From contig NZ_JALVTW010000007.1 in the NCBI RefSeq assembly GCF_027023985.1, positions 1 through 54,201 of the forward strand: a stretch of DNA of 54,201 nt, written 5' to 3'. The number at the start of each line of letters is the position of its first letter. Position 1 is the stretch's first letter. Both the position numbers and the translations under genes were made by a program. The notes beneath the pieces were generated by a model. It was given only the letters and a program-made list of their open reading frames with translations, ran no database searches and was not told where the DNA came from. Origin of the DNA: Persephonella sp. (lineage in GTDB: Bacteria > Aquificota > Aquificia > Aquificales > Hydrogenothermaceae). Positions 40,042-48,614 of this stretch are shown here, one piece after another.

Positions 40042-40908
40042 ATGGTAGAGTTTGAATTTTCACGGATAAGACTTGAATATACTGCCCTTACAGATTTTAA
40101 ACAGCCCTATTTTTTAGGTTCTTCAATTAGGGGAGTTTTGGGGAAAAGATTAAAGAAAATAGTATGTATAAAACCCCGGGAAGATTGCAAAGTATGCGAG
40201 TTTAACAAAACCTGCCCTTATACCGTAATTTTTGAAACAGAGTTTTACCTAAATATGCCATCAAAATATGTTCTTCAACCTGAATATAATTCCAAACAAT
40301 TAAAGGAAGGAGATAAGCTAAACATTGATATAACACTTCTTGGATTTGCTTCAAATTATTGGGAATTTATTATCCAGTCTTTGAATACGGTAATAAATTT
40401 GGGAAAAGAAAGATTTATCAAACAAACAGGGGTATATTATTACCATCCGTTTGCAGGCAGCTATGAACCTTTAAAATCTGTTGTTCCCAGATTTAACGCC
40501 CGTGATTTTTTTGATATAAGAACGGGGAAAGAAGAGATAAATATAAGGCTTTTTCCTACCTCTCTAAAATTCGGTGGCAAATATATAAAAGCCAATGAGT
40601 TTAGCAAGGATTATTTAATAAAAGCTGTTGTCAGCCGAGTTTCAAATGTAGCCCAGAATTACGGCAGCAAAACTGACAAAATATTTATAAACAAATCCAA
40701 ACTTGAAATCTCAGACCAAAATATGAAGCCTTCTCCCCTGAAAAGATGGTCAAACAGAAAAAAGAAAAAGATGATTGTTCCGGCCTTTGAAGGAAGTTTC
40801 AAGCTAAAAGGTGATATTAATGAGATATATCCATACTTGCTAATGCTGGAAAATATAAATCTGGGAAAATCAACAAGTTTTGGTCTTGGTGTAGTTAGAA
40901 CAGAGTAA
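40042..40908 (+). CDS. cas6: CRISPR pre-crRNA endoribonuclease Cas6
   Basis: 288 residues, RAMP fold. N-terminal ferredoxin-like part with 'LGSSIRGVLGKRLKKIVC' and a cysteine cluster C42-x6-C49-x2-C52-x5-C58, followed by 'YTVIFETEFYL', as in the Cas6 group with a Cys-rich insertion. The C-terminal glycine-rich loop 'GKSTSFGLG' ends the second RAMP domain and should contact the repeat RNA. It cleaves CRISPR transcripts 8 nt upstream of each spacer, leaving the ATTGAAAC handle seen in the array at 6.4 kb. No other cas gene is near. The following 716 nt hold decayed CRISPR-like repeats. Confidence 0.85.
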   Translation: MVEFEFSRIRLEYTALTDFKQPYFLGSSIRGVLGKRLKKIVCIKPREDCKVCEFNKTCPYTVIFETEFYLNMPSKYVLQPEYNSKQLKEGDKLNIDITLLGFASNYWEFIIQSLNTVINLGKERFIKQTGVYYYHPFAGSYEPLKSVVPRFNARDFFDIRTGKEEINIRLFPTSLKFGGKYIKANEFSKDYLIKAVVSRVSNVAQNYGSKTDKIFINKSKLEISDQNMKPSPLKRWSNRKKKKMIVPAFEGSFKLKGDINEIYPYLLMLENINLGKSTSFGLGVVRTE

Positions 40909-41624: not shown

Positions 41625-42692
41625 ATGGCACTTCAGGGAGTAATGGACACCCTCAAAAATGCAAATCTTGAGGAAATTGGCGTTAGCTTTTCACTGGCAG
41701 ACCTTTTAAGAGATATAAGAATAGATGGAAATAATGTTTACATAAAACTTTTTTCACCAAGTGAAAAATATCACGAGTATCTCAGAGAAAAAGCAGAAAC
41801 AGTATTAAAATCTATAGGAGCAGAGCAAGTAGAAGTTGAATTTACTTCAGAACCACCAAAACCACAGCAGCAACAACCGCCACAACCACCTCCACAGGAA
41901 AATCCATTTGAAAATAGGAGAAGAATCCCCGGAGTCAAAAAAGTTATAGCTGTTGCTTCAGGTAAAGGTGGAGTAGGAAAATCTACTGTAGCAGTTAACC
42001 TTGCAGCAGCACTTAAGAAAATGGGTTATGAAGTAGGATATCTTGATGCTGATATGTATGGTCCTTCAGGACCAACAATGCTTGGAGCTAAAGATAAACA
42101 GGTGACAGCAACACCTGATAACAAACTTATTCCTCCAGAAGCCCATGGGATAAAAATGATGTCAATAGGTCTTCTGTTACCTTCAGAAGACACTCCTGTA
42201 ATATGGAGAGGCCCTGTTCTTTTTAAAGCATTATCCCAATTCCTATTTGATATAAACTGGGGAGAAGGTCTTGATTTCCTCATTATAGATTTACCTCCAG
42301 GAACCGGTGATGTTCAAATTACACTTGGGCAAACCGCAGAAATAGATGGAGCAGTTATAGTAACAACCCCTCAAGATGTAGCCCTCATAGACGTCAAAAA
42401 AGGAATACAGATGTTCAACGAAGTTCAAATACCGGTTCTGGGGATAGTTGAAAATATGAGCTATTTTGTTTGCCCGGATAGTGGAAAAGCTTATGAAATA
42501 TTTGGAAAATCAAAAACAGAAGAAATAGCAAAACAATATAATACGGAGCTACTTGGAAAAATTCCTATAGAACCAAAAGTAGCTGAGTTTGCAGACCTTG
42601 GAATACCTATTGTTTTAGCAAAGGAAGACAGCGACTCAGCAAAAGCATTTATGGAAATAGCACAAAATGTAATAAGAAAACTAAGTGAGTAA
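41625..42692 (+). CDS. mrp: Mrp/ApbC-type iron-sulfur carrier ATPase
   Basis: 355 residues. N-terminal MIP18/DUF59-like domain (~1-80), a Pro/Gln-rich linker (~83-100), then the Mrp P-loop ATPase: deviant Walker A 'GKGGVGKST', 'YLDADMYGPS', Walker B-like 'LDFLIIDLPPGTGD'. It binds and transfers [4Fe-4S] clusters. The C-terminal CxxC that bridges the cluster in ApbC-type dimers reads CPDS ('YFVCPDSGKAYEIFG'), so the second Cys is Ser. AGGAGG ahead of the ATG. 19 nt before the cysteine desulfurase homologue, so co-transcribed. Confidence 0.93.
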   Translation: MALQGVMDTLKNANLEEIGVSFSLADLLRDIRIDGNNVYIKLFSPSEKYHEYLREKAETVLKSIGAEQVEVEFTSEPPKPQQQQPPQPPPQENPFENRRRIPGVKKVIAVASGKGGVGKSTVAVNLAAALKKMGYEVGYLDADMYGPSGPTMLGAKDKQVTATPDNKLIPPEAHGIKMMSIGLLLPSEDTPVIWRGPVLFKALSQFLFDINWGEGLDFLIIDLPPGTGDVQITLGQTAEIDGAVIVTTPQDVALIDVKKGIQMFNEVQIPVLGIVENMSYFVCPDSGKAYEIFGKSKTEEIAKQYNTELLGKIPIEPKVAEFADLGIPIVLAKEDSDSAKAFMEIAQNVIRKLSE

Positions 42693-42711: not shown

Positions 42712-43947
42712 ATGATAGAAAAAAGAGGCATCGTTTACGCTGACCATCTGGCAACAACACCTGTGCCGGAAGAAATAGTAGAGGCTATGAAGCCTTACTT
42801 TACAGAGCATTTTGGAAACCCAACATCTCTGCATAAATTAGGAGTTCAAGCTAAAAAGGCTATAAATAGAGCCAGAGAACAGGTTGCAGAACTTTTAAAT
42901 GTGGGAAATCCTGAAGAAATTGTTTATACATCCGGAGCAATAGAGGCAAATAACCTTGCTATAAAAGGATTTGCAAAAGCTCCAGGTATTACAAGAAGAG
43001 GAAAACATATTGTTGTTTCTGCAATAGAACACCACTCTATCCTTCACTCATGCAAAACTCTGGAAAAAGAAGGATACGAAGTTACATACATAATGCCAGA
43101 CGAATACGGTATTATAACCCCTGAGAAAGTTGCTGAAGCAGTTAGAGAAGATACAATTCTTGTTTCTATTGGTTATGCAAACAGGGAAATAGGAACAATC
43201 CAAGATATGCCTGCACTGGTTGCAGCAGCAAAAGAGAAAAACCCAAGAGTTGTTTTCCACTCTGATATTGCTGCAGCTGTAGGTCATACACCTGTTAATG
43301 TAGAGGAATGGGGACTTGATATGGCCTCATTTACAGGACACTATTTCTACGCACCAAAAGGTGTAGGTGGTCTTTATGTTAAAAAAGGAGTTCGTCTAAA
43401 ACCTTTAATTGAAGGCGGTATTCAAGAAGGTGGAAGAAGAGCAGGAACAGAACCGGTGCCATTGATTGTTGGAATGGGTGCAGCAGCAGAACTGGCCATC
43501 AAAGAAATGGATGACAGGGTAAATAGACTCAAAGCATTAAGAGATAAACTCAAAAAAGGAATTGAAGAAAAAATACCTTACATCCAGTTCACAGGGCATC
43601 CGGAAAAAAGACTTCCTAACCATCTTTCATTAATTGTTATGTATATTGAAGGTGAAGCTATGCTTCTTATGCTTGATTACCATAAAATTTATACAGCTTC
43701 CGGTTCTGCATGTGTTTCCTATGCACTTAAACAATCACATGTTCTTGCTGCAATAGGTGTTGATAAAGAGATGTCCAACGGTTCAATTGTTTTCTCTCTT
43801 GGTAGGGAAAATACAGAGGAAGACATTGATTACATACTTGATAAATATCCTGCAGCAGTTCAAAGACTTAGAGAAATATCACCATTTGGACCTGAAAACT
43901 GGGATGAATTTGCCAAAAAAGCAGACAAATTTAAAAACGTAAAATAA
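42712..43947 (+). CDS. NifS/IscS-family protein lacking the PLP lysine
   Basis: 411 residues, class V aminotransferase fold of NifS/IscS length. Overall alignment to IscS is easy to follow, including His107 ('AIEHHSIL', PLP stacking), Asp185 ('FHSDIAAAVG') and the flexible catalytic loop with Cys334 ('SGSACVSYAL'). At the Schiff-base position, where IscS reads 'SGHKIYGPKG', this protein reads 'TGHYFYAPKG': Tyr211 (codon 43342-43344, TAT) replaces the lysine. The PLP-contacting Gln after the Asp is Ala188. Cysteine desulfurase activity is therefore unlikely, but the persulfide/cluster-ligand Cys is kept. Start chosen for AGGAGG 8 nt upstream. It ends in a strong terminator. Confidence 0.9.
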   Translation: MIEKRGIVYADHLATTPVPEEIVEAMKPYFTEHFGNPTSLHKLGVQAKKAINRAREQVAELLNVGNPEEIVYTSGAIEANNLAIKGFAKAPGITRRGKHIVVSAIEHHSILHSCKTLEKEGYEVTYIMPDEYGIITPEKVAEAVREDTILVSIGYANREIGTIQDMPALVAAAKEKNPRVVFHSDIAAAVGHTPVNVEEWGLDMASFTGHYFYAPKGVGGLYVKKGVRLKPLIEGGIQEGGRRAGTEPVPLIVGMGAAAELAIKEMDDRVNRLKALRDKLKKGIEEKIPYIQFTGHPEKRLPNHLSLIVMYIEGEAMLLMLDYHKIYTASGSACVSYALKQSHVLAAIGVDKEMSNGSIVFSLGRENTEEDIDYILDKYPAAVQRLREISPFGPENWDEFAKKADKFKNVK

Positions 43948-43954
43948 ATTATTG

Positions 43955-43976
43955 GCTCCCTTTTGGGAGCTTTTTT
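43955..43976 (+). terminator. Rho-independent terminator of mrp-nifS-like operon
   Basis: Stem GCTCCC / GGGAGC with a TTTT loop, followed by six T residues (43971-43976). It overlaps the 3' end of the convergent ClC channel gene. Confidence 0.9.
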
Positions 43977-46099: not shown

Positions 46100-46558
46100 A
46101 TGTTTGAATATACAGAAAAGGTAATGGATCACTTCATGAATCCAAGGAACTTGGGAGAAATACCTAATCCTGATGGATATGGACAGTGTGGTAACCCATC
46201 TTGTGGAGATGCAATGCTTTTTACAATAAAAGTAAACAAAGAAAATGATGTTATAGAAGATGTTAAATTCAAAACATTTGGATGTGGTTCTGCTATAGCA
46301 GTTTCTTCTGTTCTTACAGAAATGGTAAAAGGTAAGCCTATAGACTATGCACTTAACCTGACTTACAAAGAAATTTTTGAAGAGCTTGGGGGACTTCCTT
46401 CACAAAAAATACACTGCACAAACCTCGGACTTGAAACACTCCACGTTGCTATCAAGGACTACCTTCTGAAACAAGGTAGAGTTGAAGAAGCTAACAAAAT
46501 TCCTGATTGTATAGAAGAAGAGGAAGAAGAAGGTATTGACTTAGAACATATAGGGTAA
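46100..46558 (+). CDS. iscU: IscU/NifU N-terminal domain iron-sulfur scaffold
   Basis: 152 residues. All three cluster-ligand cysteines are present: 'GNPSCGDAM' (with the conserved Asp), 'FGCGSAIAVSS' and 'KIHCTNLGL'. The usual Hsc/Hsp70-binding LPPVK is replaced by 'LPSQK', as in NifU-type scaffolds. The C-terminus has an acidic extension. GGAGGT site before the ATG. The stop overlaps the next gene's start by one base. It heads a seven-gene operon of iron-sulfur and sulfur transfer genes. Confidence 0.95.
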   Translation: MFEYTEKVMDHFMNPRNLGEIPNPDGYGQCGNPSCGDAMLFTIKVNKENDVIEDVKFKTFGCGSAIAVSSVLTEMVKGKPIDYALNLTYKEIFEELGGLPSQKIHCTNLGLETLHVAIKDYLLKQGRVEEANKIPDCIEEEEEEGIDLEHIG

Positions 46559-46812
46559 TGGCCATGGAGAAAGACATTTTCTCAATGGATAAAGATACAA
46601 CAATATGCTTCTGCAATGATGTCTCTTTAGGGGAAATACTGCAGGCTATCCAGAATGGAGCCTGCACCCTTGATGATATTATGGATGCTACAGATGCAGG
46701 CACTGCCTGTGGTCTGTGTAAATCCCCTGAAGATGACCCAGATGGAGAAAGAGAAGTTCATTTAACAGAGATATTACAACAAGCTAAAGAAAAAGGTATA
46801 TGTCCAGAATAA
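46558..46812 (+). CDS. BFD-like [2Fe-2S] protein (NifU middle domain)
   Basis: 84 residues. Cysteines CxC ('ICFCNDVS') and CxxC ('TACGLCKS') match the BFD-like [2Fe-2S] domain, the permanent cluster domain at the centre of classical NifU. Here it is a separate protein, directly behind iscU. The C-terminus extends with 'HLTEILQQAKEKGI' and a fifth Cys in 'GICPE'. Probably an electron donor or permanent-cluster partner for scaffold loading. Confidence 0.88.
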   Translation: MAMEKDIFSMDKDTTICFCNDVSLGEILQAIQNGACTLDDIMDATDAGTACGLCKSPEDDPDGEREVHLTEILQQAKEKGICPE

Positions 46813-47858
46813 TGAAGGAAAAAAGAAGAGCAATAGCTTTATATTCAGGAGGTCTTGATAGCACATTAGCTATAAAACTAATTCAAAATCAAGGGATAGA
46901 TGTAGTTGCAGTTCATTTCTATACAGGCTTTTGTATCACGGAAACAAAAAGAAGAAGAGGCGAGAAAAAGCCAGACGGCTCACATTATATGAATCCGGCC
47001 TTAAAATATGCTGCAAAATACGGCTTCAAGCTGGAAATTGTTGATATTTCAGAAGAATATTTTGATATTGTTACTAATCCAAAATACGGATATGGGGCAA
47101 ATGTAAACCCTTGCATAGACTGTAGAGCCTTTATGTATAAAAAAGCAAAGGAATTAATGGATGAGTTTGATGCTGATTTTATAATCTCAGGGGAAGTTCT
47201 AAATCAAAGACCAATGAGCCAGCACCTTAAAGCTATGAAAATCATAGAAAGGGAAGCTGGAGTAGAAGGTCTTGTCCTGAAGCCTCTTTCTGCAAAAGTT
47301 CTACCTCCTACAATACCTGAAATAAAAGGCTGGGTTGATAGGGAAAAACTGGAAGGAATTGTAGGAAGAAGCAGAAAAAGGCAGTTTCAACTGGCAAAAG
47401 AACTTGGAATAGATGAATTTGAACAGCCTGCAGGTGGTTGCTGTTACTTAACAGATGAAAACTTTGCCAGAAAATATATGGAAACTTTATCAGTAGAAAA
47501 TAAAATAACAAGAGAAGACCTGTATCTGCTTACCATTGGAAGACATTTCAGACTTCCTACAGGAACAAAAGTTGTAGTTTCCCGTAATGAAGGAGAAGGT
47601 AATTTCATAAGAGGATTGAAGAAAAATTACTGGTTCTTTGAGCCAATTGGAAAAGGTGCAGTTGCCATAGCAAAAACAATAGAAAATAGGGATTTAACTC
47701 AGGAAGAAATTAAAGATATAGCAAATTTGGTAGCAAGATACTCTAAAACAGATGAAAATGGTAAAATAAATATAAAATGGACATCCCCTACAGGGGTAGA
47801 GGGCATTACCGAAGGTCAAAGACTACAAGAAGAAATATTAGAAAGCTGGAGGATATAA
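46812..47858 (+). CDS. PP-loop ATPase, tRNA-thiolation-like (ThiI/MnmA-related with DUF814-type tail)
   Basis: 348 residues. N-terminal PP-loop 'LYSGGLDSTLA' for adenylation, then 'NPCIDCRAFMYKKAKE' (CxxC) and 'AGGCCYLTD'. These cysteines are arranged like the catalytic or cluster cysteines of tRNA thiolases. The C-terminal ~120 residues ('REDLYLLTIGRHFRLPTGTKVVV') look like the NFACT-R/DUF814-type domain. The role is probably tRNA uridine thiolation fed by neighbouring TusA. Start: ATG 46812 gives a TAATG overlap with the previous gene; ATG 46800, four codons earlier, is also possible. Confidence 0.8.
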   Translation: MKEKRRAIALYSGGLDSTLAIKLIQNQGIDVVAVHFYTGFCITETKRRRGEKKPDGSHYMNPALKYAAKYGFKLEIVDISEEYFDIVTNPKYGYGANVNPCIDCRAFMYKKAKELMDEFDADFIISGEVLNQRPMSQHLKAMKIIEREAGVEGLVLKPLSAKVLPPTIPEIKGWVDREKLEGIVGRSRKRQFQLAKELGIDEFEQPAGGCCYLTDENFARKYMETLSVENKITREDLYLLTIGRHFRLPTGTKVVVSRNEGEGNFIRGLKKNYWFFEPIGKGAVAIAKTIENRDLTQEEIKDIANLVARYSKTDENGKINIKWTSPTGVEGITEGQRLQEEILESWRI

Positions 47859-48106
47859 TGGATTTAGAAAATATAAAACCTGATATTACCCATGATGCAA
47901 CAGGGACTTTTTGCCCAATCCCTATAACAGAACTTGCAAAAGTGATGAAACAGGCTAAAAAAGGACAGATTGTTGAACTTCTTGCAGATGATGAAGGAGC
48001 TATTCAGGACGTTCCTGCATGGTGTGAAACAACAGGAAATGAGTTTTTAGGATATAAAGAAGAAGATGGCGTATATGTATTTTATGTAAAGAAAACTCAG
48101 GACTGA
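47858..48106 (+). CDS. tusA: TusA-family sulfur carrier
   Basis: 82 residues. 'ATGTFCPIPITELAKVM' carries the CPxP motif whose Cys accepts persulfide. A beta/alpha sandwich follows ('GQIVELLADDEGAIQDVPAWCETTGNEF') with a second Cys common in the family. It starts inside the preceding stop (TAATG) and its stop overlaps the following start, so translation is coupled. Likely relays sulfur to the PP-loop protein or to respiratory sulfur metabolism. Confidence 0.93.
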   Translation: MDLENIKPDITHDATGTFCPIPITELAKVMKQAKKGQIVELLADDEGAIQDVPAWCETTGNEFLGYKEEDGVYVFYVKKTQD

Positions 48107-48360
48107 TGAACATGAAAATAACAGAAGATATGAAAGTTTTCCATCTGCTTGAAGAATTTCCTGAGAGCGAAGAAATAGTTAAAAAATATTTCGGGTATTT
48201 TTACGAAAAAAAATTAGAAGATATAGCACTAAAAAGATTGAGCATAAAAGGTGCTTTCAATGTTTTAAACATACCCGAAGAAGACAGACAAAAATTTTTT
48301 CAGGAACTTCAAGAAAAATTAGGTGTTGAAGTTCCTAAAATCAGTATGGAGAAAGAGTGA
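48106..48360 (+). CDS. DUF1858-like small protein
   Basis: 84 residues (or 82 from the second ATG). The 'ITEDMKVFHLLEEFPESEEIVKKYFG' start matches DUF1858, the small helical domain found in ScdA-type iron-sulfur repair proteins and hybrid-cluster-associated proteins, in which a cysteine is often present; none is visible here. Embedded in the sulfur operon with overlapping start and stop codons. Function unknown, probably an accessory to scaffold proteins. Confidence 0.7.
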   Translation: MNMKITEDMKVFHLLEEFPESEEIVKKYFGYFYEKKLEDIALKRLSIKGAFNVLNIPEEDRQKFFQELQEKLGVEVPKISMEKE

Positions 48361-48614
48361 TGGTTAAAACAAGAGAGCAAGAAGTAGAAAATGTTTTAGA
48401 AATGATTAGACCTGCTTTAGCATTGGATATGGGGGATATTAAACTTGTAAAAGTAGAAGATGATACTGTTTATCTTGAACTTCTTGGAGCCTGCTCTACA
48501 TGTCCGGTGCCTGATATAACAATGAAGGATGTTATTATAGTAGCGATTAAGAACTTCTTACCATGGGTTAAAAAGGTTCATATTGGACAACATAAATTTG
48601 AAATACAAACATGA
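48360..48614 (+). CDS. NifU C-terminal-domain iron-sulfur scaffold (Nfu type)
   Basis: 84 residues. 'LLGACSTCPVPDITMKDVI' contains the CxxC that holds a [4Fe-4S] cluster between two Nfu monomers. This is the third NifU domain, again a separate gene. ATG 48360 overlaps the previous TGA; a GTG one codon earlier is the alternative. Its stop overlaps aroE by 4 nt. Confidence 0.92.
   Translation: MVKTREQEVENVLEMIRPALALDMGDIKLVKVEDDTVYLELLGACSTCPVPDITMKDVIIVAIKNFLPWVKKVHIGQHKFEIQT

Follow-up and report, generated by a model that had tools for sequence, protein, structure and literature searches.

A lysine-less IscS homologue encoded near IscU in Persephonella, probably a helper in iron–sulfur cluster assembly

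Enzymes of the IscS type take sulfur from cysteine for iron–sulfur clusters, and to our knowledge cysteine desulfurases are held to be the universal point at which sulfur enters the ISC pathway. In the archaeon Archaeoglobus fulgidus, IscS is inactive as a desulfurase because the lysine is replaced by aspartate, and one of its cysteines serves as a ligand of the IscU-bound cluster (PMC7585200 and works cited there), as the original prediction for the gene described here had stated. Structures of this protein (PDB 4eb5, 4eb7 and 4hvk) and of its D199K mutant (4r5f) are available. The essential lysine is likewise missing from Methanosarcina acetivorans IscS1, which perhaps acts in the same way (PMC7585200). 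In E. coli, clusters can be assembled on IscU with H2S when IscS is missing (PMC13015791).

A bacterial counterpart is known at the level of PDB entries. The closest PDB sequences to the protein studied here are 9wep to 9wfy, and over 396 amino acids chain A of 9wfy has the same sequence as the orthologue of one genome in our set (G001), which we take, from this identity, to be that of Aquifex aeolicus VF5. The same entry has an IscU chain with a score nearly equal to that of the A. aeolicus IscU of 2z7e; the wild-type Aquifex orthologue and IscU are thus present in one entry, which was compared by sequence only. Six further entries (9wep, 9wer, 9wew, 9wf8, 9wfb and 9wfe) are back-mutants with graded reversion to the canonical Asn, Lys, Arg, Gln, Thr, Ala, Met, Val and Ser, from which we infer that the depositors were restoring the PLP site; such a stepwise series implies that they regard the native pocket as non-functional. 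We found no paper describing these entries in the literature searched, and no biochemical data on the Persephonella protein or the Aquifex wild type in the open literature searched. The idea of a lysine-less IscS is partly known, and the Aquificota version is already under structural study.

The cofactor pocket and its conservation

The gene lies at 42712..43947 on the plus strand of the window, by which we mean the whole analysed stretch of 54,201 nucleotides from a Persephonella contig. It encodes 411 amino acids without internal stops, and translation, a Pfam match (Aminotran_5, E 8.6e-75) and comparison by alignment with E. coli IscS and with 134 orthologue records place it in a lysine-less class of iscS-like genes. 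In a gap-free alignment to E. coli IscS, Tyr211 (codon TAT, 43342..43344, plus strand; local sequence SFTGHYFYAPKG) stands at the position of Lys206, which forms the Schiff base with PLP, and Ala188 at that of Gln183, a PLP contact. His107, Asp185 and the catalytic-loop Cys334 (codon TGT, 43711..43713, plus strand) correspond to His104, Asp180 and Cys328 and are retained. The original prediction had described a full-length protein with precisely these two replacements and three retained residues, and that observation is correct. The PLP and substrate sites have lost more than that account lists: Thr76 has become Ile77, Asn155 has become Arg158 and Arg354 has become Val360. The residues expected of NifS/IscS enzymes at the Schiff-base lysine and at the Thr76, Asn155, Gln183 and Arg354 positions are all missing, replaced by Tyr or Leu across the orthologues in the first case and by Ile, Arg, Ala or Pro, and Val in the others, and the loop cysteine and the two residues equivalent to His104 and Asp180 persist in 134 of 134 records. 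The best NCBIfam model for the protein is NifS, and the equivalog cut-offs are missed both for TIGR03402 (465.3 bits against 530.75) and for TIGR02006 (387.6 bits against 643.2).

The class-V aminotransferase fold itself appears to be intact. An AlphaFold model built from a 25-row alignment (pLDDT 89.5), which replaced an earlier one built from 10 close relatives (pLDDT 61), predicts the IscS fold; residues 234–241 and the cysteine loop (333–338) are modelled with low confidence. It superposes on solved IscS and NFS1 chains with Z scores of 50–52. Among the best matches is 4eb5_A, A. fulgidus IscS from its complex with IscU (Z 52.5, rmsd 1.4 Å over 375 residues), which ties with the E. coli and human IscS/NFS1 chains.

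In a genome search, orthologues turned up in just two families of the Aquificota, where most genomes have one; 99 of 136 genomes were matched, a few of them through a canonical paralogue alone. Named records identify the family of the window (82–100% identity) as the Hydrogenothermaceae (Persephonella, Sulfurihydrogenibium, Hydrogenothermus) and the second (61–69% identity) as the Aquificaceae (Aquifex, Thermocrinis, Hydrogenobacter, Hydrogenobaculum). The lysine position is always tyrosine in the Hydrogenothermaceae orthologues read (37 distinct nucleotide sequences among 62 records; 26 use TAC and 11 TAT) and always leucine in the Aquificaceae orthologues read (51 distinct nucleotide sequences among 72 records), where five codons are used (CTC, CTT, CTG, CTA and TTG). 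Genes recur among the 134 records, since genomes were retrieved twice, and the counts of distinct sequences are the ones to use. The Asn155 position is arginine and the Thr76 position isoleucine throughout the 134 records, the Gln183 position is proline or alanine, and the Arg354 position is valine in 133, the remaining record being a truncated contig. The positions of Cys328, His104, Asp180 and His205 are invariant, that of Thr243 is kept and that of Ser203 is threonine.

Pairwise dN/dS among the orthologues is 0.01–0.07, values that are approximate since several dS estimates are near saturation, and on this evidence the replaced residues of the pocket are under selection and not decaying. 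The occurrence of tyrosine or leucine in all orthologues, written with synonymous codons, excludes chance or a sequencing error at 43342–43344, and none of the orthologues read carries lysine at position 211. A decaying pseudogene or an assembly error would have the substitution itself to recommend it and nothing else; almost every near-complete genome of both families has an uninterrupted copy, and this explanation was rejected and carries almost no weight. The claim that the gene is maintained thus stands, whilst the notion of a bacterial lysine-to-tyrosine counterpart needs to be widened: the loss of the lysine is real and conserved, but tyrosine is one state of a clade that also has leucine, arginine and glutamine. 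Two orthologues, 93% and 63% identical, occur on metagenome-assembled contigs labelled Flavobacteriales and Acidobacteria respectively, in an Aquificota-like mrp–iscS order, and these records are probably misassigned or contaminated.

Gene neighbourhood, distribution and ancestry

The surroundings of the gene had been read correctly from the window. It sits behind a gene for an Mrp/ApbC-type iron–sulfur carrier ATPase (41625..42692, plus strand; Pfam ParA (NUBPL), E 2.5e-102, and neighbourhood scan), whose 3′ end lies 19 nt upstream; among the Aquificota loci read with enough flank, mrp almost always directly precedes iscS. The proposed terminator corresponds to a terminator-like stem-loop with a T-run at 43954..43971 on the plus strand, the most G+C-rich of those found in the stem-loop search. 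The iscU gene, said to be 2.2 kb away, occupies 46100..46558 on the plus strand (Pfam NifU_N, E 7.4e-51, alignment and neighbourhood) and starts 2153 nt downstream. Its product has an intact ligand set by alignment (Cys35, Asp37, a downstream ligand cysteine and a His-Cys motif), so that a cognate scaffold with its ligands is encoded alongside, as would be expected for a partner of the A. fulgidus type. All six Aquificota IscU sequences checked have one cysteine more (motif GQCGNPxCGD, in which it is Cys30 of the window's IscU), which precedes Cys35 by five residues, at a site that is valine in IscU of E. coli, Nitrospirota and Bacillota. No Rfam elements were found near the iscS-like gene, and a Cas6-like gene (40042–40908; Pfam CRISPR_Cas6, E 8e-9) lies a few hundred bases upstream of mrp.

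Downstream of iscU, and likewise on the plus strand, are genes for a BFD-like [2Fe-2S] protein (46558..46812; Pfam Fer2_BFD, E 1.1e-11), a PP-loop thiolation protein of the ThiI/MnmA-like kind fused to an NFACT-R_2 domain (46800..47858; domain search), a TusA-type sulfur carrier (47855..48106; Pfam TusA, E 9.2e-23), a small DUF1858-like protein (48106..48360; a match under the curated cut-off) and an Nfu-type carrier with the NifU C-terminal domain (48357..48614; Pfam NifU, E 1.2e-20); the BFD-like, PP-loop and DUF1858-like genes belong to the iscU operon. Many Hydrogenothermaceae have the order mrp, iscS, iscU, (bfd), thiI-like, tusA, DUF1858, nifU-C, aroE, and iscU is directly 3′ of iscS in several of them; in Persephonella-type genomes, the window included, an inverted ClC channel gene intervenes. 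In Aquificaceae iscU is found elsewhere and not beside iscS.

Across the phylum, IscU was found in 98 genomes, all of them Hydrogenothermaceae or Aquificaceae, and SufB/D in 29, all from other Aquificota families; a search for SufB/D in the genome of the window found none. The lysine-less IscS and IscU therefore share two families of Aquificota and occur nowhere else in the phylum, and SufB is confined to the remaining families. Lysine-containing desulfurases follow a patchier pattern. This genome has one, on another contig (C10:20503-21639; motif SGHKINAPKG), with the Lys, Gln, Asn, Arg and Cys all retained, so that a second, canonical desulfurase, for which the original prediction had advised looking, is present, and the idea that there is none was rejected. 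Such paralogues, with fragments and broken copies counted, occur in 8 of 64 Aquificaceae and in about three quarters of Hydrogenothermaceae. At least nine near-complete genomes (G030, G033, G037, G039, G053, G058, G099, G101 and G104) have no lysine-type desulfurase recognisable by sequence similarity, which cannot prove that the activity is absent; their other class-V matches are only serine-glyoxylate-type aminotransferases (48–78% identical to the one of the Persephonella genome) and weak fold-type-I matches. IscU is present in these nine genomes and SufB is absent. The canonical paralogue of a close relative (G083 C1:1692834-1693966) has a 1-bp deletion, but as this adjoins an A-run it may be a sequencing error, and the frameshift was left out of the argument.

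A scan of genome contigs found lysine-less relatives beyond the Aquificota. Two contigs, one with a Nitrospirota label, encode proteins with arginine at the lysine position, and an Actinomycetota metagenome-assembled genome encodes one with glutamine; each also lacks the equivalents of Asn155, Gln183 and Arg354. The Nitrospirota gene order is Rrf2-type regulator, iscS, iscU, tusA and a DsrE-like gene, and that of the Actinomycetota contig is Rrf2, iscS, DsrE2 and tusA with no adjoining iscU. The next relatives, from Desulfotomaculum-type Bacillota, are canonical and have the lysine. In a maximum-likelihood tree built without the trait columns, the sequences with tyrosine, leucine, arginine or glutamine form a single clade (support 100/96) beside the lysine-bearing Bacillota, and A. 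fulgidus IscS, with aspartate, falls outside it. The simplest reading of this tree is a single loss of the lysine in the bacterial clade, with a separate loss probable in the archaeal line; a constraint uniting all lysine-less sequences, A. fulgidus included, is not rejected (AU p 0.14), although descent from an A. fulgidus-type IscS has no support in the tree. Some Aquificaceae have in addition a more divergent lysine-less class-V paralogue (L061, at 991-2151, and L067, L068 and L131), with tyrosine, serine or phenylalanine at the lysine position, which in L067, L068 and L131 sits between genes resembling homocitrate synthase and aldehyde:ferredoxin oxidoreductase. It was considered as an orthologue and assigned to a separate group, and it is possibly a sulfur or cofactor partner of a tungsten enzyme.

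A PLP-free partner of IscU

With the cofactor pocket dismantled and a reactive cysteine and the scaffold gene kept in this thermophile and its relatives, the protein is probably a helper in building iron–sulfur clusters and not itself a producer of sulfur. On balance we favour, with modest confidence, the explanation that it is a PLP-free descendant of IscS, no longer a cysteine desulfurase, which has been retained as a partner of IscU and whose Cys334 would be an outside ligand of the nascent [2Fe-2S] cluster. The protein would dock on IscU in the manner of IscS, presenting Cys334 on a flexible loop to the IscU active site, where it would hold the nascent cluster in the way described for A. 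fulgidus IscS. Inorganic sulfur would have another source, presumably the free sulfide of sulfur-rich habitats, or in this genome possibly the canonical desulfurase. What is seen is the loss of residues, the retained cysteine, purifying selection, the gene context, the matched occurrence of IscU and the lack of SUF; that the product is free of PLP and inactive as a desulfurase is suggested by its sequence, and ligation of the cluster by Cys334 and the use of sulfide are proposed. Counting against this explanation, iscU stands apart from iscS in Aquificaceae, and the canonical desulfurase means that cysteine could still supply sulfur in this genome. The original prediction had suggested a cluster-loading or persulfide-accepting partner of IscU, an interpretation that is partly supported and was largely reasonable: the conserved loss of the lysine, the wider loss of the pocket, the invariant loop cysteine, the neighbouring iscU of many Hydrogenothermaceae and the presence of the Aquifex orthologue and IscU in one PDB entry all speak for an IscU partner. 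Between its two forms, the ligand is favoured over the persulfide acceptor.

The latter deserves consideration nonetheless. Instead of ligating a cluster, Cys334 might receive sulfane sulfur, with TusA, a rhodanese, a DsrE-type protein or the canonical desulfurase as donor, and pass it to IscU; the former enzyme would then have become a relay point for sulfur that enters at the acceptor side. The invariance of Cys334 and the presence of tusA in the same gene cluster agree with this, TusA and IscU are both binding partners of E. coli IscS (PMC11302665), and the TusA and DsrE-type neighbours in Nitrospirota and Actinomycetota, in the latter with no iscU adjoining, fit a role as ligand alone no better than a persulfide relay. 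However, the persulfide donor is only hypothetical, TusA is linked to tRNA thiolation too and a ThiI/MnmA-like gene adjoins it here, and the Aquifex and A. fulgidus homologues are found with IscU, the latter as a ligand; a relay seems to us unlikely, though it is the rival that we take most seriously. Distinctly less probable is a purely structural role, in which the dimer would stabilise IscU or recruit Mrp and other proteins and act neither as ligand nor as sulfur carrier. The adjoining mrp and the retained IscS fold would fit, but such a role alone does not explain why the loop cysteine and the residues matching His104 and Asp180 are invariant.

A residual or unusual desulfurase, holding PLP without a Schiff base or through another lysine and still able to cleave cysteine at a slow rate, perhaps only in complex with IscU, is in our view very improbable. 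The residues kept at the Asp180, His104, His205 and Thr243 positions and the threonine at that of Ser203 are compatible with a pocket, and E. coli IscS K206A retains some PLP binding (PMC9978102). Against this, K206A and Q183E have both lost desulfurase activity (PMC9978102), the Asn155, Gln183, Thr76 and Arg354 positions are gone here as well, and the PDB series reverts several residues and not one. The label of cysteine desulfurase on these genes, even on the PDB entries, is probably wrong.

Several elements of this picture are new: a lysine-less IscS that accompanies IscU in two Aquificota families lacking SufB, the near-complete genomes without a recognisable lysine-containing desulfurase, the Nitrospirota and Actinomycetota relatives in the same clade, and the tyrosine variant together with the extent of the pocket loss. 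We tentatively raise the wider possibility that Hydrogenothermaceae and Aquificaceae run a desulfurase-free ISC pathway, in which IscU and a PLP-dead IscS would be the only recognisable machinery for de novo cluster assembly, sulfur would be drawn from sulfide or sulfane sulfur and not from cysteine, canonical desulfurases would be optional and absent from many genomes, and the class would reach into Nitrospirota and Actinomycetota. A conserved bacterial clade that has kept IscU, has dismantled the PLP site of IscS, and has no SUF and often no other recognisable desulfurase makes the question of cysteine-independent ISC directly testable, and bears on how iron–sulfur clusters are assembled under sulfide-rich conditions.

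Comparison with known systems

The closest described protein is that of Aquifex aeolicus, an orthologue of about 68% identity with mrp adjacent, the same losses at the equivalents of Thr76, Asn155, Gln183, Lys206 and Arg354, and the same cysteine, histidine and aspartate kept; it differs in having leucine where Persephonella has tyrosine and proline where Persephonella has alanine, and in that iscU is not a neighbour of its gene. A. fulgidus IscS shares the fold, the lost lysine, the lost Gln183 and Arg354 positions and the loop cysteine, but is archaeal and 45% identical, has aspartate in place of the lysine, retains the counterparts of Thr76 and Asn155 and lies outside the Aquificota clade in the tree, where a single clade is nevertheless not rejected. 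M. acetivorans IscS1 is likewise archaeal, is uncharacterised (it was found in inclusion bodies) and coexists with an active IscS2. E. coli IscS and the NifS-type enzymes have in common with the Persephonella protein the fold, the loop cysteine, the IscU partner and the Aminotran_5 domain, whereas Lys206, Asn155, Gln183, Thr76 and Arg354 are all replaced in the Persephonella protein, which falls short of the equivalog thresholds of that group.
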